Positions 2,182 to 36,573 of a stretch of 51,908 nt of DNA are shown piece after piece. Both the position numbers and the translations under genes were made by a program. Below the pieces are notes generated by a model. The model saw nothing but the letters and a program-made list of their open reading frames with translations. It made no database searches and was not told where the DNA came from. Within the stretch, counting starts at the first letter, position 1; each line of letters opens with the position of its first letter. The stretch comes from Caldifarciminota bacterium. GTDB taxonomy: Bacteria > Hydrothermota > Hydrothermia > UBA1063 > CAJXJZ01. The DNA is taken from NCBI GenBank assembly GCA_026986775.1, contig JALSNX010000007.1, positions 1-51,908 of the forward strand, given 5' to 3'.

Positions 2182-2190
2182 GAGGTGAAT

Positions 2191-4371
2191 ATGTCAGGGC
2201 GGAGGGTAGTCAGAGTAATACTGTTGGTCTTTGCAATTGTTGGGGCTCTCTATGCCCAGATAAGTGAACTTGACCTGTTCACACAGAAAGAAGTCATAGT
2301 GGTTACGGCTACAAAAACTGCCCAGAAACTTGAAGAGGCACCCAGCATAATGAGTGCTTATCTGGAAAAAGAGTTACGGGAAATGCCATATGATGAACTT
2401 GTTGATTTTCTGAATACAGTGCCGGGTCTTGTGGTCAGTATGGCTCCGGATGGCCGGTATAGATTAACTGTTAGAGGACAGAGGGCTCCTGGAGAAGTGC
2501 TTGTTTTGATTGATGGTCAGAAGATTAACGATATTTATACAGGTGAGGGTAATTATGAAATACCCCTTGAATGGATTTCAAGGATAGAAATATTAAGAGG
2601 TCCTGGGTCTTCACTTTTCGGTAGCAATGCTTTGACGGGTATTATTAATATTATAACAAAGCAGCCCGATAATGAAAGCAAAGGACATTTTGCGTTTATA
2701 GAAAAAGGTGGGGTAATACTTGGCGATAATACAGATAATGGTATAAGGAAATCGCTGAGATTATACGCAGGATATAATGGTGGTTTATTCAGGTTGGATG
2801 CGAATTTAAGGCTGGAAGACCCATTCGCAATGCGGGTAACACGAGATATATATGCTGATAGAGACCCTAATTCTCTTTTGTATGGGGGCAAAACAGGATA
2901 TACGTATCGTAAGTTCAATGGTGCAAATTTCAAGGTGAGTTTGAAAAAGGATAAGTTTCACGCACAGATTATGTCATTTTACAGAAAGCGTGATGCCTAT
3001 GCCGGTTATACATTGTGGTATGCCCCGGGTAGTGACCTTAAAGATAATACCCTTATTGGCAATTTAGGGTTTGATTATCTTAACAGTGAAAAAGTTACAT
3101 CATCCTTTAAACTTGGTGGCATTTATGTAATACATGATTTTCTCATAAAGGAAAGACCTGATGGATATATTGATCCCGTAAGCGGTGATACATTCTCTGA
3201 GGGCATGCTCACAAAAGAATACTACAAAGAATTTACCTTTAATGCAGAGAACCAGATTAACTATAATGTGAGTGACAACCTTCTTTTTTCTCTGGGACTC
3301 CAGTTTGAGTACTCAGGAATTCCCGATTTTTATGTTTACAGAAATTACAGTGCTCTTACACACGAACATTATAGTGAACTTGGAAACTATGATAGTTTGA
3401 ACTTTGCAGACATAAAAAATAAAGCAAGAAGTGTATTTGCAGGTTATGCGCAGGCTATTTACAGAGGTAAATTAATGGACAGAGACTGGCAGGTAGTTCT
3501 CGGTGGAAGATACGATAAGTATTCGGATGTTGCTGAAAAAATGCCATTTGTTCCCCGTATATCTTTTATGTTTGTTCCTGTTGAGAACCTGAGAATAAGG
3601 CTCATGTATGGAGGCGCGTTCAGGGCACCAACGTTTAAAGAATTATATGACAGGAGCTCCATAGGTAAGGATGCTATATATGGAAATGAAACATTGAAAC
3701 CAGAGCAGATTATCACACCAGAAGCAGGAATTGAATGGCATCTTGCTAAGGGTGTCTTCCGTGCCAACGTTTACCAGAGTAAACTTAAGGATATAATAAG
3801 AGCATTTGACCCACAGGGTTCTGGAAAATATGGATGGTATGAAAATATTGGAGATATAAAAAGCCTGGGTGGTGAAGTGGATTTAAGATACGCTCTTTCG
3901 GATAACATAGGTATAATGGCCAATTATTCGTATGTTCTTCCTGTATTTTACTGGAACAGGGAGAAACTTGGAACTGACTTTCTCGCAAGCATAGGCGCCT
4001 ATGATGGCACATGGATAAACAATATCCCTCATTACAGAGCCACTTTTGGAGTGAGGTTTAATGCGCTTAAGAAACAAAACGGTTATGCTTTAAAGAGCAT
4101 TATAATAGGAAAGTATTTTGGAAAGCGTGCAAACAATAACAGAGTTAATATAGAAACCCAGCACACAGTTGATATACCATCTTCTTTTACTTTTGATGTG
4201 TATCTTCGTTACAGCATTGCTAAAAATGTATATCTTGGTCTTAGAGGCTACAATCTCATTCCTTCATATTATGCAGACCCAACAGAGACAAATGACATAG
4301 ATAGTTATGGAGAAAAAGGTCTGATACAGCCAGCGAGAAGGATTGAAATTGAGGCTGGAATAAATATCTAA
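2191..4371 (+). CDS. TonB-dependent outer-membrane receptor
   Basis: A 726-aa protein. A signal peptide (about residues 1-22, ending ALYAQ) precedes a TonB-box-like segment (EVIVVTAT) and a plug domain (about 40-160) with the motifs VLIDGQKIND, IEILRGPGSSLFGSNA and GIINIITK. The rest is a 22-strand-type beta barrel ending in a short terminal strand. The ATG at 2191 was preferred to the in-frame GTG at 2185 because the GTG lies inside the SD AGGAGG. The family imports siderophores, cobalamin, nucleosides or sugars using proton-motive force passed through TonB-ExbBD; a complete ExbB/ExbD/TonB set is encoded at 17670-20156. The substrate is unknown. The neighbouring nucleotidase-C lipoprotein weakly suggests nucleotide-type compounds. 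Confidence 0.93.
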   Translation: MSGRRVVRVILLVFAIVGALYAQISELDLFTQKEVIVVTATKTAQKLEEAPSIMSAYLEKELREMPYDELVDFLNTVPGLVVSMAPDGRYRLTVRGQRAPGEVLVLIDGQKINDIYTGEGNYEIPLEWISRIEILRGPGSSLFGSNALTGIINIITKQPDNESKGHFAFIEKGGVILGDNTDNGIRKSLRLYAGYNGGLFRLDANLRLEDPFAMRVTRDIYADRDPNSLLYGGKTGYTYRKFNGANFKVSLKKDKFHAQIMSFYRKRDAYAGYTLWYAPGSDLKDNTLIGNLGFDYLNSEKVTSSFKLGGIYVIHDFLIKERPDGYIDPVSGDTFSEGMLTKEYYKEFTFNAENQINYNVSDNLLFSLGLQFEYSGIPDFYVYRNYSALTHEHYSELGNYDSLNFADIKNKARSVFAGYAQAIYRGKLMDRDWQVVLGGRYDKYSDVAEKMPFVPRISFMFVPVENLRIRLMYGGAFRAPTFKELYDRSSIGKDAIYGNETLKPEQIITPEAGIEWHLAKGVFRANVYQSKLKDIIRAFDPQGSGKYGWYENIGDIKSLGGEVDLRYALSDNIGIMANYSYVLPVFYWNREKLGTDFLASIGAYDGTWINNIPHYRATFGVRFNALKKQNGYALKSIIIGKYFGKRANNNRVNIETQHTVDIPSSFTFDVYLRYSIAKNVYLGLRGYNLIPSYYADPTETNDIDSYGEKGLIQPARRIEIEAGINI

Positions 4372-11893: not shown

Positions 11894-12880
11894 ATGCCTG
11901 CGAATTTAACGCCTCAATACCTTGCAGCTGAGGAGGAGTACAGGAGGGCAAGAACAATTGAGGAAAAGATTGCTGCCCTCCGTAAAATGTGGGCTTATCT
12001 TCCAAAGCACAAGGGTACGGATAAACTGCAGGCTGATATTAAAGCCAAACTCTCACGACTTAAAAAAGAACTTGAACAGGAAAAAAAGTCCGGGAAAAAG
12101 AGAACAGGGTTTTATGTCAGAAAAGAAGGTGCCGGACAGATTGTACTTGTTGGACCACCAAATACAGGAAAGTCCTCACTCCTTAAAGCCCTGACAGGAA
12201 AAGATGTATCAATTGCTGAATATCCTTTTACCACGCAGGTTCCTGATGTGGCAATGATGCCATATGAAGATATACAGATTCAGATTGTGGATTTACCACC
12301 TATTACAAGGGAGCACTTTGTATACTGGCAGATTGATATTATAAGGGGAGCAGACCTCATTCTCATGGTTTTTGCCCTTGATGATGGGGATTCTGTCTTC
12401 ATGTTTGATGACCTGATTGGCCTTCTCAGGGAAAAAAATATAATACCTATAGGTGAGGGAGAAGGTGGCATGGAGCTTTTTGGGCCTGTAAAGAAAAAGA
12501 CCATTGTGATAGCCAATAAAAAAGACCTTGATGAGGATGGTGAAATACTTGGTTTTCTAAAAGAAGAAATAATAAAAGGGCGCTATCCTGTAATTCCTGT
12601 TTCCTCACTGGAAAATACAGAACACTTAAAGCCACTTTTATTTGAGAGTCTTGATATAATAAGGGTTTATACAAAAGAGCCGGGGAAACCGCCTTCCATG
12701 GAAGACCCTCTTATATTAAAGAAAGGAAGCACTGTTAAAGAAGCCGCAGCAAGGATACACAAGGATTTTGCAGAGCATTTGAAGTTTGCGAAAGTGTGGG
12801 GCTCGTCTAAATTTCCCGGTCAGAGGGTAGAACAGGATTATGTACTCAAAGACAAGGATATAGTGGAGTTTCATATTTGA
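11894..12880 (+). CDS. DRG/Obg-like GTPase with TGS domain
   Basis: A 328-aa protein. A charged helical N-terminus (about 1-75) is followed by a GTPase domain with G1 GPPNTGKSS, a switch containing YPFTTQVPD, G3 DLPP, G4 NKKDL and G5 PVSSLE. A C-terminal TGS domain follows (about 255-328, VKEAAARIHKDFAEHLKFAKVWG). The architecture matches DRG/Rbg-type GTPases, which act on ribosomes in eukaryotes and archaea; a ribosome-linked role here is inferred from the family. The G3 motif has Pro where most Obg-family members have Gly. It follows purA by one nt and probably shares its transcript. Confidence 0.88.
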   Translation: MPANLTPQYLAAEEEYRRARTIEEKIAALRKMWAYLPKHKGTDKLQADIKAKLSRLKKELEQEKKSGKKRTGFYVRKEGAGQIVLVGPPNTGKSSLLKALTGKDVSIAEYPFTTQVPDVAMMPYEDIQIQIVDLPPITREHFVYWQIDIIRGADLILMVFALDDGDSVFMFDDLIGLLREKNIIPIGEGEGGMELFGPVKKKTIVIANKKDLDEDGEILGFLKEEIIKGRYPVIPVSSLENTEHLKPLLFESLDIIRVYTKEPGKPPSMEDPLILKKGSTVKEAAARIHKDFAEHLKFAKVWGSSKFPGQRVEQDYVLKDKDIVEFHI

Positions 12881-12947: not shown

Positions 12948-13910
12948 GTGATATTTTTGTTTGCATTGCTAACAATAGCACCATTTTTACAGATAAACCA
13001 TAGAGATACGCTGTTACAGGGTGAAAGAGACACAATTTTTATAAATGTTTCTGATTCTACGGGCAGTGCTCTTGATAGTGTGGAGATTAGAGTCATGGTG
13101 GGTACAGCGGGTATAGTTGATGTGGACGATACAGTTTTATTCAGTGATTCTGCAGGAAATGCCTATACAGAGGTTCTTGCTCGCCTGCCGGGATATACGG
13201 ATGTATATATTACTGCAATAGATAGTGCTGATACCACAGTGGATACGACGGGGATAGTTGTCCTTGATAGCACCCAGCATTTTTATATTTCTGTATATCC
13301 TGCCCTTATGACGATTAACTCGGATAATTATGATACTGTATATGCAAGGCTTTACTCAAGGGATTCTATTGTGGCAGGAAGGGCAATACATTTTAATGTG
13401 GTAAGTGGCAGTGGTCATGTATCCCCGCCTGTTAATAATACAGATATTAATGGTATTGCCTATACGGTGTTTTATCCCTTCGTGGGGGATACGGTGTTTG
13501 TAGAGGGTTATTATGAGGATAATCAGGGTAGGCGCATTGCAGACACAACAAGAATTATTGTTAATCCGAGTGAGGTGGATACCCTGAGGGTATTTGGAGA
13601 CAGTTTGTTTTTCTATCCATCACCCATAGGTCATGGTCATGACAGGGCAAATATAGAGTACCTTCTTCCATCAGATTTTTCTGATGTTGAGATAAGAATT
13701 CTTGACCCCTTTGGAAATACCGTGTATCTGAAAAGAATAAAGCCCGGGGAAAATGGAGGAATCGGAGGTAGCTGGAATAGAATCCAGTGGGATGGTACAA
13801 ACAACAATGGAAAGAAGGTTGCATCGGGGCTGTATATTCTTGTAGTTAGAATATACAGAGGAACGGCTCTATTGCGTGAACTTACAAAACGGGTAGGTGT
13901 GGAATGGTAG
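12948..13910 (+). CDS. Secreted protein with two Big-1-like and one FlgD-like Ig domain
   Basis: A 320-aa protein with a short hydrophobic N-terminus. Two Ig-like domains of the Big-1/invasin type follow (about 15-105 with SDSAGNAYTEVLA, and 110-205 with TDINGIAYTVFYP). A C-terminal FlgD-like Ig domain (about 215-318) carries the signature WDGTNNNGKKVASGLYILVVR. The start is GTG with SD GGAGG. The stop overlaps the next gene by 7 nt. It is the first gene of the TPR-ExbB-ExbD-ExbD-TonB operon and is presumably a periplasmic or surface component of that assembly. Confidence 0.8.
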   Translation: MIFLFALLTIAPFLQINHRDTLLQGERDTIFINVSDSTGSALDSVEIRVMVGTAGIVDVDDTVLFSDSAGNAYTEVLARLPGYTDVYITAIDSADTTVDTTGIVVLDSTQHFYISVYPALMTINSDNYDTVYARLYSRDSIVAGRAIHFNVVSGSGHVSPPVNNTDINGIAYTVFYPFVGDTVFVEGYYEDNQGRRIADTTRIIVNPSEVDTLRVFGDSLFFYPSPIGHGHDRANIEYLLPSDFSDVEIRILDPFGNTVYLKRIKPGENGGIGGSWNRIQWDGTNNNGKKVASGLYILVVRIYRGTALLRELTKRVGVEW

Positions 13911-15091
13911 GTAATATATTGTTAATGTTAATGGGGTTTCTGGGAGGGAGCACGGGATACCTGCTTGATTATGGGTACGGAGCCCGTGCATTTGCCATGG
14001 GGTCTGCTTATTATGGTTTATCTGGCGATGTAATATCTGGGGCGTATAATCCTGCTTCCCTCGGCTTCCTGCGGGAGAACGGTTTTTCAGCAACCTATGC
14101 TCCTTTATCATTTGATGAGACGTTTACTTCGCTCGTTTTTTCTAAGGTGGTTCAGGGGAATCTTAATTATGCGGTTTTTCTTGCCGGGCTGAATACACCG
14201 GGTTTTGAGGGTAGAGATGAATTCAATAGAAGAACCGGAACCTACTGGTTTGTGCAGTATGGTGGGGGGGTATCCATAGGCAGGAGATTGAGTGACCCTG
14301 TGGCTGTTGGATTAAAGTTAAAGTTTCTTTATTCAAGAATAAGAGAGGATATAGGGGCAGGATTTGGTGCTGATGTTTCTACCTATTTTATAGTAAATAG
14401 TTATCTGCGTGGAGGTTTAGGCATTAAGAATATTATACCGCTGTCAGTGTCCTATCTGGGTGAGAAGGAAAGAGCACCGCTTGAACTTATTACCGGATGG
14501 GATATACGGCCCACATCTTTTTTACACTTCAGTGTTGATATGTCCTATTCTGCTTTTTCAGGGTTTAACATGGCCTTTGGTGGGGAGGGCAGGTTTCTTG
14601 ATGTATTTAGAATCAGAGGTGGGATAAATTCCCGTGAGATTACAGGGGGTATAGGTGTGGCAAAGGATTATCGCAACTATACTCTCAAGATTGATTATTC
14701 ATATGCTATGCCAAGAGGTATATCTGTTTTCCATGATATGCACAGAATTTCCTTTACGTTCAATTTTGGTGGATACAGGGTTTATGCTGTTTCAGAACCT
14801 TTTGTGTTGAGTATCACAGAGGAAAATGCTGTGGCAAAGATAAGATTGCATATCCATCTCCCATACAGAGTAAGTCAGTGGAAACTTGTTATCAAGACAA
14901 ATGGAGGAGAGTTTGTCAGGTCATTTGAAGGGAAAAATGCGCCACCGCTGGTTCTTATCTGGGATGCAAGAGATTCAAATGGTATGATTGTTCCTGATGG
15001 TACCTACAGGTATGAACTGCATGTAATAGACGAGTATGGTAATGAGTATACAAAATCAGGAAATCTTGTAAAGGTAAGGCTGGCATTATGA
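13904..15091 (+). CDS. PorV/UPF0164-like outer-membrane barrel with FlgD-like Ig domain
   Basis: A 395-aa protein with an N-terminal signal segment. Then comes the PorV/UPF0164 pattern (GYGARAFAMGSAYYGLSGDV, AYNPASLGFL) and a predicted beta barrel to about residue 300. The C-terminal domain (about 305-392) is FlgD-like: WDARDSNGMIVPDGTYRY, then DEYGNEY. PorV-type barrels shuttle substrates in type IX secretion, but relatives occur in many FCB bacteria without a known role. It overlaps both neighbours, which argues for stoichiometric co-production with the TPR and ExbB genes. Confidence 0.8.
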   Translation: MVGNILLMLMGFLGGSTGYLLDYGYGARAFAMGSAYYGLSGDVISGAYNPASLGFLRENGFSATYAPLSFDETFTSLVFSKVVQGNLNYAVFLAGLNTPGFEGRDEFNRRTGTYWFVQYGGGVSIGRRLSDPVAVGLKLKFLYSRIREDIGAGFGADVSTYFIVNSYLRGGLGIKNIIPLSVSYLGEKERAPLELITGWDIRPTSFLHFSVDMSYSAFSGFNMAFGGEGRFLDVFRIRGGINSREITGGIGVAKDYRNYTLKIDYSYAMPRGISVFHDMHRISFTFNFGGYRVYAVSEPFVLSITEENAVAKIRLHIHLPYRVSQWKLVIKTNGGEFVRSFEGKNAPPLVLIWDARDSNGMIVPDGTYRYELHVIDEYGNEYTKSGNLVKVRLAL

Positions 15092-17673
15092 ATTTGATGG
15101 TATTGTATGCACTTTTAATTGGAGTAACTCCACAGAAAAAAGAGGAGTTTTCACTCAGGGATAGATACCTCTACGTGGAGCATCTTCTTGGAGAGGAAAA
15201 GTACGAAGAGGCTTTGAATGTATTTAAAAATGATATGGAGGCTTTTTCCAGTACTCCGTATCATCTTGAAGCAAGGTTTCTGTATGCTGAACTTCTGTAC
15301 GATGCGGGGTACTCTGAAGAGTTTTTAAAACAGAGCAGAAAACTCCTCAAGAAGGTAAAAGGCACGTATCTTGAGCCTGAACTCTACTACAATTTGAGTG
15401 TTTATTATCTTACGAGGGGCTTTACTGATAGGGCACTTGAATACATAGAAAAGCTTGAAAAGTTTCCTGATTATAAAAATTCCAGCAGGTATTTCTTCTT
15501 AAGAGGGTTACTCCAGTACGTTAAGGGCAACTATCTTGAGTCCATCAAGTTCTTTGAGAAGACCTCTATTCCCTGGGGTAAACTGTTTGAAGGAAGGGCA
15601 TATGCCTTTACTGACAGGCCAAAGGAGGCAATTTATCTTTACAGGTCAATGCTTGACAGTTTTCAGAATACTCGTCTTGAGGGTGCAATTAAGTATGGTA
15701 TAATTGAAGCCCTCTTTATTTACAGTGATTATCAGGGAGTGGTTCTCAAAGGAGAGGAGTTTTTAAAGGATTTCCCGGACCATAAACTCTTTGACTACGT
15801 CAAGTATCTTGTAGGAGTCTCGTACTATAAACTGGGAAAATATGACGAAGCCATTAAACAGCTACTCCCACTTGCTCAAAAAACATCGTTTGAATATGCG
15901 CCCTTATCTGCGTATTTTGTGGGCAATGCAAAAATGCGAGAGGAAAAATATGAAGATGCTATTAAATACTTCCAGAAGGCTCGTTCACAGGTGCTGAACA
16001 ATGATTTGCAGGTACTATCGTTTTTCCGAATTGCGCAGAGTTATTATCTTGCCAATGATACTGCAAACCTCAAACTTGCAGTGTTGCAACTTAAGTCAAT
16101 GTTCCCGGGTGGGATTTTGGGCGGTATGGGGCCTTATTTTGCAGGAGCTGTTGATTTTGAAAAAATGAGATATACAATGGCGGAAGCTGAGTTTAAAGAC
16201 GTAGTTGAAAATAATTTTGTCACTGCCCTGAGATTTCCGGCGATAACCTTTTATTTTGCCTCTCTTTTAAGGGAGGGCCGTGCTGATAAGCTTGCTACTG
16301 TAAGCGCTGTTTTTGCTGATGAGCTTGCAAAAAGTAACGATATATGGGCGGGCTGGGCAGGTCTTTTGCGGGCTGAGGCACTGTATCGGACGCAAAGATA
16401 CGAAGAGGCAGAGAAGGTTTATCTATCCATTATATCTAAATACAAGGATAAAGGACGTTTACTTGTTGGTAATGCCAAAACATCGCTTGGATGGACGTAC
16501 ATAGCTGAGAAAAGGTATGAGAATGCAGAGAATGTGTTGAAAGAGGTTGCAGAGATATATACTGATACCCTGTTTGTTATACAGGCTCACATGGGTCTTG
16601 GAGTTGTTTATTTTAATAAAGGAAATTATAAGGACGCCTATAGAGAATTTGCTGCAATAAGCAATACTTTCCCGGATATGGACTGGGTAACTCCTTATGC
16701 TTTGTATTACAAAGGTTTTGCCCTTTACGCCATGAAGGCATATGGTGATGCCGTTGATGTGTGGGAGAATCTGATAAGACGATTCGGCTCATCCCCTATA
16801 TGTGAAGAGGCGGCATACAAACTTGCTGATACTTACAGTAAAGCAGGAGAATATACAAAATCCAATACCTATATAGACTGGCTTCTTAAGAGTTTTCCGA
16901 AGGGAAAACGTGCTCCTAAAGCACAGTTATTGAAGGCTCAGAATTATTTTAATATGAAAGAATTTGAAAAGGCCATTGAAGAGTATCAGAAATTCCTTTC
17001 ACTTTATCCTGATGACGAACTGGCACAGGCAGCGCAGACGGGTATGTCTCAGGCTTTTTATTATCAGAGTCAGAACGACCCTGATGCTCTTAAGAAGTTC
17101 ACAAAGAAATTCCCCACAAGTGAATATGCAGCGCAGGCCATTTATGATCAGGGTGTTAAGTATTACGAAGAGAAGAAATATAAAAAAGCAGCAGCTTATT
17201 TTATGACCCTTGCAATTGATTATCCAAAGAGCGAAAAGGCTCCTAAAAGTCTTATTTATGCCGGACAGTTGTATGCCATGGTAAAGGATTGGGACAATTC
17301 TGCATCAGCCTATAAGAAATATATTGATTTCTTCCCTCGCGGTGAGCATATACAGGACGCGTATTTTGGACTTGGTGTTGCGCTTCTTCAGAGTGGACAT
17401 TATAAGCGTGCTGCAGATGTATTTAAAGAACTGCTGGATAAGTATCCAGATACAAAATATAAGGAGAAGGCATATAAAAACCTCGGTATAGCACTTTATT
17501 CATCAAATGATGCTTATGGGGCAGTTGATGCATTGAAAAAAGCGGCTTCTTTATATGAGGCAAAGGGAGAAAAGGATGAAGCCCTTGCCATTTATCAATA
17601 CATATATGAAATCGCTCCTGATGCTGAAATAAAAAGATTTGCAGAAGTAAAAATCAAGGAGGCACAGCAATGA
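15088..17673 (+). CDS. Large periplasmic TPR-repeat protein (CpoB/BamD-like)
   Basis: An 861-aa protein with a short hydrophobic N-terminus followed by about 20 tetratricopeptide repeats over almost its whole length. Examples are YFVGNAKMREEKYEDAIKYF, AYKLADTYSKAGEYTKS and GLGVALLQSGHYKRAADVF. The C-terminal third resembles the TPR_6 type of CpoB/YbgF and BamD. The gene overlaps its neighbours by 4 nt on both sides, in the same position relative to a proton-channel pair that cpoB holds in tol-pal clusters (though upstream rather than downstream). A scaffold linking the inner-membrane motor to outer-membrane partners is the likely role. Confidence 0.82.
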   Translation: MNLMVLYALLIGVTPQKKEEFSLRDRYLYVEHLLGEEKYEEALNVFKNDMEAFSSTPYHLEARFLYAELLYDAGYSEEFLKQSRKLLKKVKGTYLEPELYYNLSVYYLTRGFTDRALEYIEKLEKFPDYKNSSRYFFLRGLLQYVKGNYLESIKFFEKTSIPWGKLFEGRAYAFTDRPKEAIYLYRSMLDSFQNTRLEGAIKYGIIEALFIYSDYQGVVLKGEEFLKDFPDHKLFDYVKYLVGVSYYKLGKYDEAIKQLLPLAQKTSFEYAPLSAYFVGNAKMREEKYEDAIKYFQKARSQVLNNDLQVLSFFRIAQSYYLANDTANLKLAVLQLKSMFPGGILGGMGPYFAGAVDFEKMRYTMAEAEFKDVVENNFVTALRFPAITFYFASLLREGRADKLATVSAVFADELAKSNDIWAGWAGLLRAEALYRTQRYEEAEKVYLSIISKYKDKGRLLVGNAKTSLGWTYIAEKRYENAENVLKEVAEIYTDTLFVIQAHMGLGVVYFNKGNYKDAYREFAAISNTFPDMDWVTPYALYYKGFALYAMKAYGDAVDVWENLIRRFGSSPICEEAAYKLADTYSKAGEYTKSNTYIDWLLKSFPKGKRAPKAQLLKAQNYFNMKEFEKAIEEYQKFLSLYPDDELAQAAQTGMSQAFYYQSQNDPDALKKFTKKFPTSEYAAQAIYDQGVKYYEEKKYKKAAAYFMTLAIDYPKSEKAPKSLIYAGQLYAMVKDWDNSASAYKKYIDFFPRGEHIQDAYFGLGVALLQSGHYKRAADVFKELLDKYPDTKYKEKAYKNLGIALYSSNDAYGAVDALKKAASLYEAKGEKDEALAIYQYIYEIAPDAEIKRFAEVKIKEAQQ

Positions 17674-18308
17674 TAATGGGTAAATCTATTGCAGAAATCA
17701 TAATGGGCAGTTATACCATGCAACTTCTATTTGTTACATCGGTTGTTGCCCTTGCTCTGATTATTGAAAGAGGGATATATTTTCTGAAAAACAGGTTTGA
17801 TTACTTCAAGTTCATTAGAGAGGTAGAAGAGCTCCTCAGGGAAGGTAATAAAAAGAAACTGGAGCGTGTCGCTTATGCGAAAAACACGCCGGTTCACAGG
17901 GTTCTGAGAGTGGCTGTGGATAACCTTGATATAAGCGAGGATGAACTTAGAGAACTTCTTACCTCACAGGTACAGGAAGAGGTGGCAAAATCCAAAAAGT
18001 TTCTTGGAGGACTTGCCACAATAGTTGCTATTGCCCCACTTCTTGGTCTCTATGGTACAGTTGTTGGTCTTATAACTGCTTTTCATAACATTGCAGTTAC
18101 AGGCTCTGGTGGTCCTGAGGTCGTTGGAGGAGGTATCGCAGAAGCACTTCTTACAACTCAGTTTGGCTTGATGATAGCCATTCCAGCCCTGATTTTTTAT
18201 AATTATTATGCCAAGAAAACCGAAGACATGGAAGACTTTCTTGAAGCTCTTGCCAGTAAACTTGTATCATACAGAAAGATTCTGTGGAATAAGATGCTTG
18301 AAAAATGA
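17670..18308 (+). CDS. ExbB/TolQ/MotA family proton-channel protein
   Basis: A 212-aa inner-membrane protein with three membrane segments (about 17-37, 112-135 and 155-177). The family signature APLLGLYGTVVGLITAF lies in the second, and GIAEALLTTQFGLMIAIP leads into the third. ExbB-type proteins form pentamers around an ExbD dimer and use the proton gradient to do work on the envelope. The start overlaps the TPR gene by 4 nt. Two ExbD genes and one TonB gene follow with 1-4 nt overlaps, so the complex is probably made of these four products. Confidence 0.95.
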   Translation: MIMGKSIAEIIMGSYTMQLLFVTSVVALALIIERGIYFLKNRFDYFKFIREVEELLREGNKKKLERVAYAKNTPVHRVLRVAVDNLDISEDELRELLTSQVQEEVAKSKKFLGGLATIVAIAPLLGLYGTVVGLITAFHNIAVTGSGGPEVVGGGIAEALLTTQFGLMIAIPALIFYNYYAKKTEDMEDFLEALASKLVSYRKILWNKMLEK

Positions 18309-18739
18309 AAAGCAAGAGAAAGAAAAGAAGGGATAGTAAAAAATCCATGGTCAATCTCGCACCAATGGTGGATATAACACTGTCTCTTCTTATCATGTTT
18401 GTCCTGTCAATTCCATTTCTCATTGAATCTGGTATATTTGTACAGCGTGCTGCTGCTGGAAAAGCCCGCAGGACTGTTAAAATAAAGCAGGAACAGACAA
18501 AGGTTGTGATTTACATAGATGCTAATTATAATCTTTTCCTTAATGAAGAAAAAGTTTCCGAGGATTCTCTAAAAAAACTACTGCCCGAACTTTTAAAAAG
18601 AAGTGTTACAGGCAGGGTGGTTGTGAGTGCAGATTCTGTGGTTCAGTACAGCAGGGTCATACATATAATTGACCTTTCCAAGCAGCTTGGTGCAAAAAGT
18701 GTGCTTATACTTAAAAGAAGGAGCAAAAGCAGGGCATGA
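18305..18739 (+). CDS. ExbD/TolR family protein 1 (with membrane Asp)
   Basis: A 144-aa protein with a basic N-terminus, one membrane helix (about 18-42) and a periplasmic ExbD/TolR domain. The proton-carrying aspartate is present as Asp23 in APMVDITLSLLIMF. The periplasmic part shows the usual pattern (VVIYIDANYNLFLNEEKV, GRVVVSADSVVQYSRVIHI). It overlaps exbB and the second exbD gene by 4 nt each. It should supply the active proton path of the motor. Confidence 0.94.
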   Translation: MKSKRKKRRDSKKSMVNLAPMVDITLSLLIMFVLSIPFLIESGIFVQRAAAGKARRTVKIKQEQTKVVIYIDANYNLFLNEEKVSEDSLKKLLPELLKRSVTGRVVVSADSVVQYSRVIHIIDLSKQLGAKSVLILKRRSKSRA

Positions 18740-19143
18740 ATCAGATTGACATTGGTGAAAAGCTTTTCCCAATGGCGGGTGTTTCTCTTCTTGTGCTTGT
18801 TATACTCATAGCCTCTGCGCCAACACTTATGACAAAGACCAGTACAAAGGTTGATTTGCCACGTGCACACGTTGTTGAGACAGATCTGGAGGATAATATA
18901 TCCATTTCCCTTAAAAAAGACGGTTCCCTCTTTCTCAATGATAAACCCGCTTCTTTAGATACCCTTGTGAGAGCGGTTAAGAGGATGGAAGAGGCAGACA
19001 CGGCGGCTCCTTATTATAAACTCGTGATTATCAGGGCTGATAGTGAACTTGATTTTGGAAGGATTCTTGAGGTCCTTGATTCAGTAAAGAAGAGTGGAGC
19101 AAAAAGAGTAGCATTTTCAGTTATAAAAAAGAAGGGTGAGTAA
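18736..19143 (+). CDS. ExbD/TolR family protein 2 (lacks the membrane Asp)
   Basis: A 135-aa protein with the same layout as its neighbour: one membrane helix (about 11-32) and a periplasmic ExbD-type domain (ISISLKKDGSLFLNDKPAS, KLVIIRADSELDFGRILEV). Aligning PMAGVSLLVLVIL with the PMVDITLSLLIMF of the first ExbD puts Gly15 where the essential aspartate belongs, and the helix holds no other acidic residue. The fold is intact and the frame clean, so this is not a decayed gene. An ExbD heterodimer with one protonatable and one silent helix is inferred. Confidence 0.9.
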   Translation: MNQIDIGEKLFPMAGVSLLVLVILIASAPTLMTKTSTKVDLPRAHVVETDLEDNISISLKKDGSLFLNDKPASLDTLVRAVKRMEEADTAAPYYKLVIIRADSELDFGRILEVLDSVKKSGAKRVAFSVIKKKGE

Positions 19144-20156
19144 TGAGTAAAGAAAGCAGAAGACTTATTATTGCACTTGTATTTTCGGTTATTTTTCATG
19201 TAGTTCTGTTATTTTATTCAAATAAATATGCTGAAAAAAAGAAAGAAGCGCTTGCAGAGCTTCGTGAGGTAGAACTCCTTGAGGAAAAAGTTGGTCCAAG
19301 AGTAAATCCGAAGGTTTTAAAAATGCTCGCAGAGAAAAAGGCCGAGAAAGAGAAACCCGAAGAGGCTCCATCAGGAGGGCCTACTCTTGACCTTACAAGA
19401 AAAAAGGTGGGGCTGGGGGTGGAAAAGGTTGAAGGTCCGAAGATAAGTCTTGATAAAAGTATAGAGGAACCACAGATACAGGGTCCTTCCATTTCCCTTG
19501 ATCAGGCGAGTATTACGCCGAATATAGAAAATGCCCAGATAGACCTTTCGGCAACTTCAGAAAATGTTGATGTGGAGGGAGCTGATGTTGTTCTTGCATT
19601 TTCCGGCAAAGGAAAGAGTACCAGTGAGATATTGAAGGAACAGCCTGTATCAGGTGGTATAAGTCTTGAAAGAAGTGGTATGAGTGATGCAGGTGGTGGG
19701 CTTGGAATAGGTGGTACAGGTAATGGGACTGGAGGCAAAATTAAACTTGTAAGTTCTGGTGGAACATCTTTGAAAGACCTTGAGCAGGAGACACCCACCA
19801 TAAGCAGTGCTGTAAAAAAGAGGCCGAGTATAAGCCTGAGACAGGGTAAAACATCAAAGAAGAGCAAAAGACCTCTTATAAGCCTCAGTGGTCCCCTGCA
19901 AAACAGAAAGATTTTGAAGAAGATAGCCCCTATTTATCCCCGGTCAGCTCTGCGTGAAGGTGAAGAAGGCACATGTGTTTTAAAATTCTGGGTTTCAAGG
20001 GATGGGAAGGTGAAACCAAATATACTTATTCTACGCTCAACCGGTTATCCTGATCTTGACAGAGCAGCCATGCAGGCGCTTCGCATGTGGGTATTTGAGC
20101 CATCATCAAGAGATGATGACTGGGGTGTTTTAACAGTTGTATTTCAGTTGCTTTAA
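19143..20156 (+). CDS. TonB-like energy transducer
   Basis: A 337-aa protein with an N-terminal membrane helix (about 8-25), a charged segment, a long low-complexity spacer (about 75-250) and a C-terminal TonB domain (about 258-337: IAPIYPRSALREGEEG, VSRDGKV, LDRAAMQALRMWVFEP). The spacer is not the usual Pro/Lys type. It repeats a short ISL-type motif at residues 101, 117, 133, 173, 230 and 246. The gene shares one base with the second exbD gene. It may energise the TonB receptor at 2191-4371 or act only within this operon's machine. Confidence 0.92.
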   Translation: MSKESRRLIIALVFSVIFHVVLLFYSNKYAEKKKEALAELREVELLEEKVGPRVNPKVLKMLAEKKAEKEKPEEAPSGGPTLDLTRKKVGLGVEKVEGPKISLDKSIEEPQIQGPSISLDQASITPNIENAQIDLSATSENVDVEGADVVLAFSGKGKSTSEILKEQPVSGGISLERSGMSDAGGGLGIGGTGNGTGGKIKLVSSGGTSLKDLEQETPTISSAVKKRPSISLRQGKTSKKSKRPLISLSGPLQNRKILKKIAPIYPRSALREGEEGTCVLKFWVSRDGKVKPNILILRSTGYPDLDRAAMQALRMWVFEPSSRDDDWGVLTVVFQLL

Positions 20157-20168
20157 AGGAGGCTTATT

Positions 20169-21020
20169 ATGTTGACTCTATTATTTGCGATAATTCTTGC
20201 GCAAACTCAGGGTTTAAATGAAAAAGAGGTTGTTCAGGAAAAGGCTCTTTTTACAATAGAAGATTATCAAAAACCTGGAGGAGTACTTTTGCCCTCCCCA
20301 ATATCTCCTCTTGATTCTTTAACAGGTATAAAGGAGAGGAAGTTGAGTCTTAAGATATCCAACCTCAGTGAGAATTACTATAAAAATTCCATTAAATTCA
20401 GACCGGTATATCTTCGTGTGCCTGTATCTAAGAGCATAGCAGTTTCACTTATTACTATAAAAGTTCCGTCTCCTCCTAAAAAATACGGTGTAAAGAAATG
20501 GAGCCTCTCTGTTTTTGGACCGCGAGGTGAGGTTGTAAGACAGTTTGAGGGAAAGGGGTATCCGCCAGAGTTCGTCAAGTGGGATGGGAGATATACGGAT
20601 GAGTATATTATCCCCGGTGCAACATACTCTACGATTCTTACGTATACCGATAGATATGACCGCAAAAGAAACATTATTGGTGATGATATTAAGGTTGCAG
20701 GCATTACAGGAAAGATTAAAGATAAGTATATTCTGAAGATGGTGGCAGATTCAATATTTATAAAAGGCACATATAAACTGAGAATGGACAGTTCCGAAAG
20801 AATAGATGAAATTGCAAATTTCTTGAAAGAACACTTTTTTGGTGTTATGATAGTTAGGGTGAAGGGAGACCCCGGAGAACTTTTGACTAAAAGGGTTGAG
20901 GTGCTGAAACATGAAATTTTAAAGAGGGTTCCGGTTGACCCTGCAAGGCTCAAGATGGAGAGTATCTATTTTTCGCCAGACGACCTTAAAATATATACCA
21001 TTGAAGTGATAGCGGGATGA
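20169..21020 (+). CDS. Secreted protein with FlgD-like Ig and degenerate OmpA-like domain
   Basis: A 283-aa protein with a signal segment (1-14). A middle FlgD-like domain (about 90-180) contains VVRQFEGKGYPPEFVKWDGR, closely resembling the C-terminal domain of the barrel protein at 13904. The C-terminal stretch (about 195-283) looks like a shortened OmpA/Pal peptidoglycan-binding domain: SSERIDEIANFLKEH, LLTKRVEVLKHEILKR, VDPARLKMES. The loop that normally carries GHTD and the following glycines is largely missing. A strong SD (AAAGGAGG) precedes the start. It is probably the wall- or barrel-linked partner of TonB. Confidence 0.72.
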   Translation: MLTLLFAIILAQTQGLNEKEVVQEKALFTIEDYQKPGGVLLPSPISPLDSLTGIKERKLSLKISNLSENYYKNSIKFRPVYLRVPVSKSIAVSLITIKVPSPPKKYGVKKWSLSVFGPRGEVVRQFEGKGYPPEFVKWDGRYTDEYIIPGATYSTILTYTDRYDRKRNIIGDDIKVAGITGKIKDKYILKMVADSIFIKGTYKLRMDSSERIDEIANFLKEHFFGVMIVRVKGDPGELLTKRVEVLKHEILKRVPVDPARLKMESIYFSPDDLKIYTIEVIAG

Positions 21021-23032: not shown

Positions 23033-23983
23033 ATGAGACGGTTTATAGGTAGTTGCATAGCTATACTTGTGTTAGCCCTGCCTCTCTCAGCTGGTGCTGT
23101 GGGAGACTACACGGGATTAACCACAGTGGAAAAATGGATATATGAGGAAGTAACAAAGGATTCTTCCTTTAATTATCCTCAATGGACGGTTACGTATGAC
23201 TCTGTTCCCTATGATAGTGTTGCAATCTCGTCTTTTTTTACCCTTGATGGTAAAGAAGCGTATGAGAGGTACTCGTACAAGTATCACGCAGATGGCAGTA
23301 CCACTGAGACAAAAGACACGCTTTATGAGACCGGGAATGAGATGTGGCTTAAATTTTGGATCTATACGGTAGATACGGCTTTCAGAGCCTATTTAACCCC
23401 CTTAAATGTAGGTGACTTCTGGGCTATGGAGATTGGCGGGATGTATACAGGTGATTACGATAACGATGGAACTGAGGATACAATAATTGTTTCCCATGAT
23501 ACAACGTATGTGTTGTCATATGGAAGTTTCACCGTACCTGCTGGTACATACGATGCTTTTGAACTTTATAGAGTAGGTCGGGTTGAACTACGTATGTCTT
23601 CCCAGCCTCCTACTATAGAATGGGCTTTTGACCATGAAAGGTTTGTGCCCGAAGTGGGAATAATATATGATTCTACGGTTGTTGTTGATAGCGTTGGAGG
23701 CTTTGAAACACACTGGAGATTCGTTACCAATAAATTGCTTGGTGTTGTGAATGTGCATGAAAACTCTTTACATCAGAATGTTGTTGTTGATAAAGTAGTT
23801 ATAACAGATGTTTCAGAGGTTAATATAGAGAATGTGTTGATGGGAAATTTGTATGGAGTTGATGGGACACTTATTGATAGAAACATAACGGAACATGTAA
23901 CTCTGCCCAGAAAAGGTATATACATTTTGAAAGGCATTGATAAAGACCACAAAAGTGTGAGTGTTAAGATTATTTATAGATGA
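23033..23983 (+). CDS. Secreted protein of unknown function with T9SS-like tail
   Basis: A 316-aa protein with a clear signal peptide (about 1-22, LSAGA). The body is rich in Asp, Thr, Tyr and Val and predicted to be beta-sheet, with a DNDGTED-type calcium-loop-like motif near residue 145. The last 55 residues (NLYGVDGTLIDRN, LPRKGIYILKG, SVKIIYR) resemble a type-A sorting domain for type IX secretion. I do not recognise the central domain. It overlaps the reductase gene by 4 nt (ATGA). Confidence 0.7.
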   Translation: MRRFIGSCIAILVLALPLSAGAVGDYTGLTTVEKWIYEEVTKDSSFNYPQWTVTYDSVPYDSVAISSFFTLDGKEAYERYSYKYHADGSTTETKDTLYETGNEMWLKFWIYTVDTAFRAYLTPLNVGDFWAMEIGGMYTGDYDNDGTEDTIIVSHDTTYVLSYGSFTVPAGTYDAFELYRVGRVELRMSSQPPTIEWAFDHERFVPEVGIIYDSTVVVDSVGGFETHWRFVTNKLLGVVNVHENSLHQNVVVDKVVITDVSEVNIENVLMGNLYGVDGTLIDRNITEHVTLPRKGIYILKGIDKDHKSVSVKIIYR

Positions 23984-33457: not shown

Positions 33458-34384
33458 ATGATTCGGCTTGCTAATGTCACGAGAAGGTTTGGCGATATCG
33501 TGGCTGTCAACAATGTATCACTGTTTGTAAAGCCGGGTGAGATTGTGGGATTTCTTGGGCCCAACGGGGCTGGAAAAACTACCACCATGCGAATGATTAC
33601 AGGCTTTCTGCTTCCTGATTCAGGTGAGATAGAAGTGGGTGGAGTGGATGTATTAAACTATCCTGAGGTAGCCAAGAGAAAGGTTGGATATTTACCTGAA
33701 GACAATCCACTGTATGAGGACATGACGCCATACGAGTATCTCCAGTACGGTGCTGTTATGAGGTATGTCTCCCAGCATGAGTTTAAGAAAAGGCTCAAGG
33801 ATGTGGCAGATAAAACAGGTATAGGAGATGTCCTCACAAGGCCAATAGGCGAGCTTTCAAAAGGATACAGGCAGAGGGTGGGACTTGCACATGCACTAAT
33901 TCACGACCCTGAGGTGCTTATTCTTGATGAACCTACATCAGGACTTGACCCTTCACAGATAGTTGCCATGAGGGAACTTATAAAGGAACTTTCAAAGGAG
34001 AAAACGGTGGTTCTTTCCACACATATAATGCAGGAAGCACAGCATATAAGCGATAAGATAGTGATAATAAATAAAGGAAAAATTGTAGCAGAAGGCAGTC
34101 CGGAAGAACTTGAAAAGATGGCAAAAGGTGAACACATGGTGCATGTGGTTACCAAAAACCGTGGGTTTGAAAAGGTCCTGAGTTCTTCAGGTATTGACAT
34201 ACTTGAAATAAGAGAAAAAGACGGTGAAACAGAATTTTTGGTGGCATCTGAAGATAAAAAGGATTTAAGAGAATATATATTCAACCTTGCAAAAAAGAAT
34301 AATGTAACACTACTTGAAATGTGGAAAGAGCGGGTGTCTCTTGAGGAGATATTCCTTAAGTTAACACAGGAGGAAGAGCCATGA
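33458..34384 (+). CDS. ABC transporter ATP-binding protein, GldA-like
   Basis: A 308-aa ATPase of the ABC-2 exporter class with Walker A GPNGAGKTTT, a Q-loop, the signature ELSKGYRQRVGLA, Walker B VLILDEPTSGLDP and the switch His in STHIMQEA. A C-terminal extension (about 215-305) is typical of GldA/NatA-type ATPases. It overlaps the permease gene by 4 nt. With the following permease, GldG-like and DUF4340 genes it forms a complete module resembling GldAFG of gliding Bacteroidetes, though such modules are also widespread in non-gliders. Confidence 0.93.
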   Translation: MIRLANVTRRFGDIVAVNNVSLFVKPGEIVGFLGPNGAGKTTTMRMITGFLLPDSGEIEVGGVDVLNYPEVAKRKVGYLPEDNPLYEDMTPYEYLQYGAVMRYVSQHEFKKRLKDVADKTGIGDVLTRPIGELSKGYRQRVGLAHALIHDPEVLILDEPTSGLDPSQIVAMRELIKELSKEKTVVLSTHIMQEAQHISDKIVIINKGKIVAEGSPEELEKMAKGEHMVHVVTKNRGFEKVLSSSGIDILEIREKDGETEFLVASEDKKDLREYIFNLAKKNNVTLLEMWKERVSLEEIFLKLTQEEEP

Positions 34385-35088
34385 AGAGATTTCCAACTGC
34401 CATTAGAGACCTTAACCTATCACTTTATTCTCCAATGGCTTACATATTCATGGTGGTATTCAGTGGCCTTTTGCTCTTTCTATTTTACAGGGGTTTTTTC
34501 GTTGTTGGCGAGGCTTCAATGCGGTTTATGTTCTCTCTGCTCCCATGGTTCTTTATCATCTTTGTCCCGGCTATCACCATGAAGAGTTTTGCTGAGGAAC
34601 AGAAAACAGGAACACTTGAGGTACTTTTGACCTATCCTGCATCATCAGGAAAGATTGTTTTTGAAAAGTTTCTTTCCTCCTTTCTTCTTCTGTGTATTTC
34701 GCTTGCTTTTACTCTAATTGTGCCGTTGACCCTGTTTATAATAGGGTCACCTGATACAGGAGAAATCATAAGTGGCTATATAGGTGCTTTGCTTCTTGGT
34801 GGAGCCTATGTTTCCATCGGAGTTTTTGCCTCATCACTTTCCAGAAATCAGGTTATCAGTTTTATTCTTGGAGTTATTTTTTCCTTTGTGCTATTCTTTC
34901 TTGGTAGGCCAATATTTACCATGGGGCTTTCCAGCTCACTTGCTTCTTTCCTATCCTATCTTTCACTTGGCTCTCACTACGATGCTATGGTGCGCGGCCT
35001 TATTGATACAAGGGATGTTGTGTACTACATTTCAGTGATATTCATCTTCCTTTATGCCACATATTATTTGCTGGAAAAAAGGAGATAG
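34381..35088 (+). CDS. ABC-2 type permease, GldF-like
   Basis: A 235-aa integral membrane protein with six predicted helices. Between the first and second lies the FVPAITMKSFAEEQKTGTLEVLLTYPAS segment (only part quoted: SFAEEQKTGTLEVLLTYP), a hallmark of GldF/NosY-like ABC-2 permeases. It pairs with the preceding ATPase, overlapping it by 4 nt. The substrate is unknown. Confidence 0.92.
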   Translation: MKRFPTAIRDLNLSLYSPMAYIFMVVFSGLLLFLFYRGFFVVGEASMRFMFSLLPWFFIIFVPAITMKSFAEEQKTGTLEVLLTYPASSGKIVFEKFLSSFLLLCISLAFTLIVPLTLFIIGSPDTGEIISGYIGALLLGGAYVSIGVFASSLSRNQVISFILGVIFSFVLFFLGRPIFTMGLSSSLASFLSYLSLGSHYDAMVRGLIDTRDVVYYISVIFIFLYATYYLLEKRR

Positions 35089-35091
35089 ATC

Positions 35092-36573
35092 ATGAGAAGA
35101 GTTAGCATTCTTGATCTTATATATTTTGTGGTACTTGTATTTGTTATAAACTTTGTTTCTGCGGCTTTTTACACGAGGATTGATCTGACAGAGAATAAAA
35201 AATACACACTTTCCAATTCAACAAGGAAGGTGCTTAAAGAACTTGATGATATTGTCCGCATAAAAGTCTATGTTTCTTCAAAGCTTCCAGCAGAATTATT
35301 ACCCATCAAGCAGGATGTTATGGATATTCTTGAAGAATACCGACAGAACAGCCATGGAAAGATAAAAATAGAGGTTATTGACCCCTCAAAATCAAAAGAA
35401 CTGGAGATGGAGGCATCTGCAAGTGGTGTTACCCCTGTTCAGATGAACGTTTACGAGAAGGATCAGCTTAAGGTTATAAGAGGATACTTTGGGATAGTGC
35501 TTTCCTACAAAGATAGAAAGGAGACGATACCTTTTGTAAAAAGTGCTGCCAATCTTGAGTATGAAATTACCTATAGACTTGTCAGACTTGAGCGTGGAAA
35601 GAACATGAAGGTAGGACTGTTATTCCCTTCCGGTATTAAGGTCAATGAAAAGTATTCCAGTTTAATGGATGTATTGAAGAAGACATATAACGTTGTAATT
35701 GTACCTGATACACAGTTTATCCCTGTAGATGTACTGATTGCGGGTGATATAGGAAAATATCAGGACACAACGATATCCATTCTCAAAAAGTATATAGAGG
35801 AAGATGTACCGACAATCATAATGGCTTCTGGTATAGATTTGCCAGAAAATTCCCTGTTTGGACGCACACTTCCGGATGATAGGTTCTCTCCGTTTAAAAA
35901 GTATGGTTTTGAGATTAAAAGAAACGTGGTGATGGACCGTTCCTGTGAACTTGCTCCATTTAAAGCACAGTTTTTCGTTGTTGAAAGGCCTTATTATCCC
36001 TGGTTGAGGATACTACCACAGAATATGAATAAAGACTTTAAGTCTCTTAAGGGTATCAAGATGTTGATGCTTCCATGGGCAAGCAGTGTTGACACCTTTA
36101 AGAAAGATAATGTCAAATTTACCCCTCTTTTTACAACTACAGAATATGCATGGGAAGATACGCTGGGGATGATACTCAGCCCGGATTACATCACCATTCC
36201 TAAGGATAAAAATTCATTTAAAAGGTTTCTTCTTGGTGTTAATATTGAGGGAAAACTTGATAATGACAAAAATTTCCGTATTACAGTAATTGGAAACTCT
36301 CGCTTTGTTGAAGACAGATTCGTGGGTGTTTATACTTCAAATCTTGTATTTCTGGCAAATCTTGTGGACTATTACGCACTTGGTGGTGGGCTCAGTGATA
36401 TTAGAATCAAACAGGATCTTATAAGGCCCATAAAGCCTCTGTCAGATAGACAGAGACTTCTGGTAAGATACACAAATATACTTGGAGTGCCACTTATTAT
36501 TGTGCTCTTTGGTATAGTTTACAACATTAGGAGAAAAAGAAGACTCCTGAGAGTAAAGGAGGAATTGAGATGA
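35092..36573 (+). CDS. GldG-like ABC auxiliary protein (PF09822)
   Basis: A 493-aa protein with one membrane helix at each end (about 9-27 and 462-480) and a large extracytoplasmic domain. The start matches the ABC_transp_aux family: FYTRIDLTENKKYTLSNSTR, then VRIKVYVSSKLP, then DVMDILEEYRQ. It is translated 3 nt after the permease gene. In Flavobacterium GldG is required for gliding, but the biochemical role of the family is unresolved. Confidence 0.88.
   Translation: MRRVSILDLIYFVVLVFVINFVSAAFYTRIDLTENKKYTLSNSTRKVLKELDDIVRIKVYVSSKLPAELLPIKQDVMDILEEYRQNSHGKIKIEVIDPSKSKELEMEASASGVTPVQMNVYEKDQLKVIRGYFGIVLSYKDRKETIPFVKSAANLEYEITYRLVRLERGKNMKVGLLFPSGIKVNEKYSSLMDVLKKTYNVVIVPDTQFIPVDVLIAGDIGKYQDTTISILKKYIEEDVPTIIMASGIDLPENSLFGRTLPDDRFSPFKKYGFEIKRNVVMDRSCELAPFKAQFFVVERPYYPWLRILPQNMNKDFKSLKGIKMLMLPWASSVDTFKKDNVKFTPLFTTTEYAWEDTLGMILSPDYITIPKDKNSFKRFLLGVNIEGKLDNDKNFRITVIGNSRFVEDRFVGVYTSNLVFLANLVDYYALGGGLSDIRIKQDLIRPIKPLSDRQRLLVRYTNILGVPLIIVLFGIVYNIRRKRRLLRVKEELR

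Follow-up and report, generated by a model that had tools for sequence, protein, structure and literature searches.

The 51,908-nucleotide window analysed here, contig JALSNX010000007.1 of Caldifarciminota bacterium assembly GCA_026986775.1 (contig C7 of a 2.18-Mb genome with a completeness of 98%), contains at 12948-21020 on the forward strand a block of eight genes, P1 to P8 (Table 1), that encodes a motor of the ExbBD family, a TonB-type arm and several envelope proteins. The most unusual feature of this block, visible only by alignments, is that its two ExbD proteins, P5 and P6, usually have a single transmembrane Asp between them: exactly one Asp was found in 82 of 90 scored operons (window included), two in 8 and none in 0. 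All eight open reading frames (ORFs) are present and tightly packed, with neighbouring ORFs overlapping by 1-7 bases except for a 12-base gap ahead of P8. In what follows, G, L, f and g are our handles for genomes, loci, families and genera.

The block recurs within and beyond its phylum

The packed genes had been proposed in a first-pass annotation to encode one energised envelope complex, and the analysis supports a recurrent, energised gene block. With the single P8 sequence as query, 49 of 80 relatives gave a match; a P8 profile matched 90 of 147 phylum genomes, own genome included, at E<=1e-15. Relaxing the threshold to E<=0.001 raised this to 124, the weak extra matches covering mainly the FlgD-type part, which is common to PorV-like proteins. 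Among 30 long phylum loci, the order P3-ExbB-TonB-P8 on one strand was found in 27, with P2 also in place in 24 (P2 to P8 in order) and P1 as well in 22 (P1 to P8 in order). This conserved gene order excludes a chance grouping of the block genes, and the idea that the order might be unique to this genome fails clearly. In two loci of family f21 the front half of the block does not lie beside the motor. Four loci (L046, L108 and L109 of f14, and L130 of f16) have an extra gene of about 181-184 amino acids (aa) between the TPR gene and ExbB, to which none of the block profiles match.

All or part of the block was also found in 8 genomes outside the phylum. When the P8 profile was run on 243 outside genomes, 10 matched at E<=1e-15, of which 8 were fetched (G163 and G353 were not) and 5 had the operon; a second search, of 386 genomes around G262 and covering largely the same outside genomes, added three more (G483, G486 and G427). 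Four of the outside loci (L204, L205, L206 and L220) have the complete P1-P8, and two that lie at contig ends have P2-P8 (L202) and P4-P8 (L221). Weak P8 matches in G218, G351 and G310 were set aside as FlgD-type parts of PorV-like proteins in genomes where the block is absent.

Most ExbD pairs of the block have one transmembrane Asp

The transmembrane Asp of ExbD, TolR and MotB is described as "absolutely required for activity" in a passage of PMC12905483. At the corresponding alignment column in the window, P5 has Asp (PMVDITL) and P6 has Gly (PMAGVSL). This column was scored in relatives on all ORFs, as simple non-overlapping ORF calling hides genes under long antisense ORFs. Both ExbDs could be scored in 82 of 87 phylum loci (those of G089, G011, G131, G143 and G016 were unscorable), after two duplicate rows were dropped (L099, equal to G140, and L102, equal to G141). 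A single ExbB serves both ExbDs in 71 of these 82 operons, and here the Asp is in P5 only in 60, in P6 only in 10 and in both in 1. Where a second ExbB is fused to P5, the Asp is in P6 only (8 loci), and where two separate ExbBs are present both ExbDs have it (3 loci). The 8 outside loci read, as P5/P6, D/N, N/D, D/D, D/D, D/D, D/D, D/A and N/D, so the Asp was lost from P5 in two of these genomes and from P6 in two others.

As a control we scored 22 ordinary ExbB-ExbD-ExbD-TonB loci of the phylum (20 from the phylum searches, plus L112 and L117), and both ExbDs have the Asp in 21 of them. The remaining locus, L189 (G014:C5:18300-20700), looks ordinary in its ExbB-ExbD-ExbD-TonB order and has two ExbDs without the Asp (N and S); it is perhaps a dead or repurposed motor.

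In the block, the lost Asp is replaced by Cys (24), Gly (21), Asn (20), Ala (12) or Ser (5), and 72 of the 82 Asp-less helices have neither a charged residue nor His from positions -5 to +17. All 97 of the 97 ExbBs in the alignment, which include 4 canonical ones, retain the pair of Thr residues in the ring, and the Thr part of the ring therefore looks intact.

Either partner has lost the Asp, and no scored operon lacks both

In a midpoint-rooted ExbD tree, P5-type proteins, those of the outside genomes included, group in a single 89-tip clade (support 0.957), so the ExbD pair is probably older than the Asp losses; a clade of P6-type ExbDs was not recovered in this tree. In a concatenated tree of five proteins the 8 outside genomes group together (support 1.0), and with the root placed there the phylum falls into two clades, of 21 and 61 operons. 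Within the smaller clade, 18 operons have the Asp in P6 only, and 3 that are nested as a group have both Asps and two separate ExbBs. The larger clade consists of 60 operons with the Asp in P5 only and one, from G091, with both. Fitch parsimony on the concatenated tree requires 3 changes in P5 and 4 in P6, and a loss-only count gives 6 and 7. As the tips of the tree are not independent, no probability is attached to the loss pattern. Overall, a single Asp loss hit either partner, both inside and outside the phylum, and no double loss was seen in the block.

This distribution bears on how the two ExbDs are assembled. We infer a P5-P6 heterodimer as the axle. Alternatively, the Asp-less ExbD could form a separate regulatory or structural homodimer and leave the Asp-bearing ExbD alone to build a normal motor with two Asps; for AglQ and AglS, too, the review PMC9389320 leaves hetero- or homodimerisation undecided. 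We consider this the less likely arrangement: most phylum operons have a single ExbB for both ExbDs, and the Asp-bearing partner differs by lineage with double loss in 0 of 90, a pattern more easily reconciled with a common axle than with separate, fixed roles of the two ExbDs.

A branch in which the Asp-less ExbD is fused to ExbB

The 8 phylum operons with a fused protein (8 of 82) come from families f12, f17 and f24, and in each of them the second ExbB is joined to the Asp-less ExbD. In the fused form, 77-79 residues separate the ALLTT/ALVTT motif of the ExbB helix from the motif of the ExbD helix (74-76 when counted from the Thr pair). The joined tails of unfused ExbB and P5, in the window and in L049, amount to about 70 residues, so the fusion is only about 5 longer. 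If the fused ExbD sits inside the ring, it would tie the axle to one ring subunit and limit free turning.

Three loci (L047 and L129, of G062 and G051, and that of G140) have a tandem of two ExbB-ExbD pairs ahead of TonB and P8, and the Asp is present in each of the two ExbDs; we regard these tandem pairs as an unfused counterpart of the fused form.

Families and folds of the block proteins

Profile searches place P4 in the ExbB family (PF01618, 1.9e-31), P5 and P6 in the ExbD family (PF02472, 7.7e-19 and 2.3e-17) and the end of P7 in TonB_C (PF03544, 3.2e-15), all above the Pfam cut-offs, and an S...H motif occurs within the first 90 residues of 73 of 93 P7 homologues. P3 matches TPR families above Pfam cut-offs, with TIGR02795 at 5e-58 and PorW/SprE at 1.5e-15 amid many TPR cross-matches. 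An identity of P3 as YbgF, BamD or PorW was set aside, as a protein that many TPR profiles match is not informatively assigned to any one of them.

P2 scores 85.9 bits (3.7e-24) against the NCBIfam PorV family NF033709, just under its cut-off of 90, and its FlgD_ig match (25.1 bits) also lies just under the Pfam cut-off. The two top PDB matches of its structure model (predicted local distance difference test score, pLDDT, 87) are PorV of the type 9 secretion system (T9SS) translocon (8gl6_F, 3.5e-13; 6h3i_F, 5e-11), with FadL next; the PorV matches include PorV from a substrate-bound T9SS complex. By fold, P2 is thus predicted to be a PorV-type shuttle barrel, although it falls 4 bits under the NCBIfam cut-off. 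P1 has a FlgD_ig match of 38.9 bits (8.6e-10; Pfam cut-off 27) and an end resembling a T9SS C-terminal domain (CTD), with the pattern PNPF...WDGKN...SG.Y; this C-terminal domain was found again in homologues of 147-1754 aa, some of them cut off by the fetched stretch. Together, the P2 barrel and this end of P1 are reminiscent of PorV carrying a substrate of type 9 secretion.

No significant family match was obtained for P8 in Pfam and NCBIfam searches, and its best profile match to PDB sequences was weak (E 0.0032). Its model (pLDDT 82) contains an Ig domain of FlgD type and a second domain of OmpA/MotB type, for which the best rows have Z 9-12, so the term "OmpA-like" used in the first-pass annotation appears right by predicted fold. 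The other family names given there, namely ExbB, two ExbDs, TonB and TPR by profile, PorV by fold, and FlgD-Ig, were likewise borne out for these packed genes, while the Big_1 assignment of P1 stayed below threshold (19.9 vs 34.9 bits). In one genome, P8 occurs as a tandem duplication after TonB (L124, G088:C12, 10240-12114). In genus g20, the P8 match contains one stop (TGA) or is in split frames (3 TAA) in G122:C19 and G041:C28, which may be due to sequencing errors or decay.

A short conserved segment after the P8 signal peptide is weakly TonB-box-like. We scored it with a matrix of boxes picked by eye from 14 of 20 receptor starts plus the receptor of the window, leaving out L231, L232, L238, L239 and L242 (no placeable box) and L241 (a repeat of L240). 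The mean score of the P8 segments was 4.85, compared with -0.21 for shuffled segments, and 56% of 91 reached p<=0.05, as against 4% of 26 for P1, 3% of 31 for P2 and 12% of 82 for P3. The scored P8 sequences are, it should be noted, related to one another.

The block compared with Tol-Pal and TonB systems

Tol-Pal resembles the block in having a TolQ/TolR-type proton motor (PF01618, PF02472), a TonB/TolA-type arm, an OmpA-fold protein and a TPR protein; the block differs in having no TolB and no Pal lipoprotein, and in having a PorV barrel and FlgD-Ig domains. The block could accordingly be read as a variant or replacement of Tol-Pal that constricts or stabilises the outer membrane, with P4 as TolQ, P5 and P6 as two TolRs, P7 as a TolA-like TonB, P8 as a Pal-like and P3 as a CpoB-like protein, and TolB lost. 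The parts are of the same kinds, the fold of P8 is of OmpA type, and a TolB_N match was absent from the own genome in a profile search. However, G057 has Pal, CpoB, TolQ, TolR, TolA and TolB consecutively at one locus (L114) and the block on another contig, and G010 has both a tol-pal-type cluster and the block. TolB_N matches were found in 14 of 80 genomes (13 above cut-off), of which 12 carry P8, including all 9 with E<=2e-7. In addition, P7 matches TonB_C, no lipobox is visible in P8 by eye, hhalign did not match P8 to a Pal profile built from 2 sequences only, and PorV and P1 have no counterpart in Tol-Pal. A general replacement of Tol-Pal, which the first-pass annotation had entertained, is rejected on account of this coexistence; a replacement in the own genome alone is possible, but this genome has a separate, ordinary ExbB-ExbD-ExbD-TonB operon. 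Taken as a whole, we regard the Tol-Pal reading as improbable. The own genome has 2 OmpA-family matches, one of which (C18:99095, 798 aa) is best matched, below cut-off, by a T9SS-type/OmpA-like outer-membrane family.

The core of the block, ExbB-ExbD-ExbD-TonB, would also be expected if the block were a second energiser of TonB, serving ordinary nutrient uptake, with P8 and PorV as accessories. As in TonB-ExbB-ExbD systems, ExbB, ExbD and TonB_C are encoded together, most TonB homologues have the S...H motif and the ring Thr residues are kept; TonB-dependent receptor Plug domains match in 80 of 80 genomes, and the window itself encodes a receptor outside the block (728 aa, 2185-4371, with a TonB-box-like KEVIVVTA by eye). 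The block differs from such systems in that the genes found again and again beside its motor encode PorV, TPR, P1 and P8, not receptors, and in that its ExbD pair usually has one Asp; the block contains no receptor, and in the window there is no room for one between P2 and P8. Moreover, the own genome has a separate, ordinary ExbB-ExbD-ExbD-TonB operon beside a receptor with sub-cut-off matches to TonB receptor models, SusC/RagA among them. We give the nutrient-uptake reading only a slim chance.

The block compared with type 9 secretion, gliding and other 5:2 motors

Likeness to type 9 secretion lies in the PorV fold of P2, the FlgD-Ig/CTD-like end of P1 and the SprA encoded elsewhere in the genome; the differences are an ExbBD-TonB drive instead of GldLM and the absence of the block from many genomes with SprA. 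SprA_N was found in 76 of 80 genomes, and the own SprA matches TIGR04189 at 410 bits (cut-off 200). GldM_1st (PF12081) was above cut-off in 0 of 80 genomes and below it in 1, in a search in which no control genome scored above cut-off and which did not cover GldL. These counts, the PorV-type P2 and a TPR protein comparable to the PorW/SprE bridge (PMC8754138) would suit the block as the obligate type 9 secretion motor of the phylum, replacing GldLM. P8, however, was found in only 47 of the same 80 genomes, and 32 of the 33 without a P8 match have SprA, among them the four g2 genomes of at least 98% completeness; type 9 secretion thus does not need the block, and we consider such an obligate role unlikely. 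The evidence for a link to secretion, which the first-pass annotation would have read from co-occurrence with T9SS or gliding genes, is mixed on these counts. In these counts "no P8 match" stands in for "no block"; in G016, for example, ExbB and a PorV-type FlgD match were found on a 5-kb contig with no P8.

The Agl-Glt gliding machinery (AglRQS) shares with the block one ring protein with two ExbD-type proteins (PMC3169522) as well as TPR and OmpA-like parts. It differs in that, according to the review PMC9389320, the Asp is predicted to be retained in AglQ as well as in AglS, whereas the block usually has one (Asp in P5 and Gly in P6 of the window). The first-pass statement that the gene set matches neither Tol-Pal nor Agl-Glt thus stands with respect to TolB, the Pal lipoprotein and the P6 Asp, and for Agl-Glt as far as compared, Glt profiles not having been part of the comparison.

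PMC12215075 and PMC12905483 describe the known 5:2 motors (MotAB, TolQR, ExbBD and ZorAB) as having a dimer of one axle protein, hence two Asps, and present a model in which the two Asps exchange protonation in 36-degree steps. In PMC12215075, the two TolR/ExbD Asps are in different environments by cryo-EM and a rotation of the dimer is suggested. The block shares the ExbB/ExbD family and the ring Thr residues with these motors and differs in having one Asp on one of two paralogues, with the other axle protein fused to a ring subunit in 8 genomes. The motor belongs to the ExbBD family, and the full gene set and the one-Asp pair match none of the systems compared. No paper on the operon or on Asp-less ExbD pairs was among the matches listed in a search of open-licence PMC full text, judged by titles and the starts of abstracts, which is weak evidence of absence.

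A proposed trans-envelope machine

We propose that P1 to P8 together form one trans-envelope machine, in which a 5:2-type motor, its axle a heterodimer bearing one Asp, works via TonB and P8 on a PorV-type outer-membrane complex, and we see the case for this proposal as evenly balanced. In the inner membrane, five P4 subunits would surround a P5-P6 heterodimer. Usually one ExbD of the pair would have the Asp that takes a proton near the conserved Thr of the ring, giving one ion site instead of two, and proton flow would move the axle against the ring; with a one-Asp axle, one proton might be bound per larger step, or the motor might work as a ratchet. P7 would transmit the force across the periplasm to P8, the probable TonB partner at the outer membrane, with its weakly TonB-box-like segment followed by FlgD-Ig and OmpA folds. 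P3 would bridge P8 and TonB to the barrel P2, which is plausible by analogy to PorW only, the Porphyromonas gingivalis TPR lipoprotein that links motor ring and translocon (PMC8754138). P2 would hold or release the FlgD-Ig/CTD-bearing surface protein P1. The machine might thereby supply the energy to export, assemble or move surface proteins bound to PorV, driven by ExbBD-TonB in place of the GldLM of Bacteroidota, and would be an accessory to type 9 secretion, not its obligate motor.

The architecture is well supported, and we infer the biological task. What was computed is the conserved gene neighbourhood, the folds predicted for P2 and P8, the ExbB, ExbD and TonB families and the one-Asp pattern; the heterodimer, the path of the force and the task are what we hypothesise.

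Several observations weigh against the proposal. Both Asps are present in 8 of 90 operons, namely the 3 with two separate ExbBs, that of G091 with one ExbB within a one-Asp clade, and 4 outside the phylum, and the count of independent losses varies with the tree used and with the decision to permit regain or not. The Glu of the third ExbB helix, which we take to be the E176-like residue, is kept in only 58 of the 97 aligned ExbBs. Separate ExbD homodimers are the alternative to the heterodimer, and the function is a guess from the components. As for the TonB box, the boxes from which the matrix was made score 11-21 (inflated, being self-scored) and most P8 segments score lower; the mean p is 0.14 in the genus of the window, which is not significant, most families likewise average more than 0.05, and f8, f16, f17, f24, G318 and G171 do not show the signal. 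Two outside loci (L203 and L222) have P3-P8 and no PorV match upstream, though the stretch continues, and two genomes of the genus of G262 have no P8 match at E<=1e-18. The SprA-bearing genomes without P8 count on the same side, as does the lack of a control above cut-off in the GldM search; the presence of SprA while GldM did not exceed its cut-off speaks for the proposal.

More specifically, and more tentatively, this may be a natural 5:2-type motor with an obligate heterodimeric axle and a single proton-binding Asp, a state reached in several lineages on either partner, with the Asp absent from both in none of the 90 operons. By way of a TonB-type arm, the motor would pull on an OmpA-fold protein and so power a surface-protein machine based on PorV. 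The one branch with the Asp-less axle protein joined to a ring subunit would be unable to turn its axle freely and continuously in the ring. We would put this combination at somewhat below an even chance.

Gene inventory and neighbourhood

Downstream of the block, a YhaM-like ORF (21017) overlaps P8, so the transcript of the block may continue into it; among the loci of relatives, this neighbour was found only in L033, from the other genome of the same genus. Upstream, a TGS-domain GTPase gene (11894-12880) precedes the block, as it does in the f14 loci L046, L108 and L109. Elsewhere in the window, an exported protein (23033-23983) has a C-terminus that resembles a type 9 sorting domain by eye, with no significant family matches. 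A protein with ABC_transp_aux and DUF7088 domains (35092-36573), presumably GldG-like, has possible ABC partners upstream (33458-35088).

Table 1. Features of the P1-P8 block, with positions in the window.
Feature	Position	Strand	Assignment	Basis
P1	12948..13910	+	Exported protein, weak Big_1, C-terminal FlgD-Ig	FlgD_ig profile; end PNPF-type and T9SS-CTD-like by eye
P2	13904..15091	+	PorV/FadL-type outer-membrane barrel, C-terminal FlgD-Ig	Profile and structure model
P3	15088..17673	+	Periplasmic TPR protein, 861 aa, lipobox absent by eye	TPR families
P4	17670..18308	+	ExbB/TolQ-type ring subunit, both pore Thr present	PF01618 and alignment
P5	18305..18739	+	ExbD with transmembrane Asp	PF02472 and alignment
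P5 Asp codon (residue 23, ion-carrying)	18371..18373	+		Counted on translation, alignment
P6	18736..19143	+	ExbD without transmembrane Asp (Gly at Asp column)	PF02472 and alignment
P6 Gly15 codon, Asp column	18778..18780	+		Counted on translation, alignment
P7	19143..20156	+	TonB-type arm (S...H motif in an N-terminal transmembrane helix; TonB_C behind a long linker)	
P8	20169..21020	+	Exported FlgD-Ig and OmpA-fold protein, lipobox absent by eye	Model and Foldseek/VIA matches
P8 segment EKEVVQEKA after signal peptide	20220..20246	+	Weakly TonB-box-like	Conserved in alignment; matrix
P8 FlgD-type Ig domain (about residues 93-176)	20445..20696	+		3osv_A Z 8.2, root-mean-square deviation 2.1, 74 aligned
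P8 OmpA/MotB-fold domain (about residues 183-283)	20715..21017	+		TagL 5m38_A Z 11.0, MotB 3s03_A Z 10.9, OmpA 4rha_A Z 9.8

Implications

The one-Asp operons and the ExbB-ExbD fusion are natural experiments on three questions about motors of this family: if the second Asp is required, if an axle can be a heterodimer and if the axle really turns freely. For the phylum itself, the block is a possible source of force for PorV-type surface systems in genomes where GldM was not found above cut-off.

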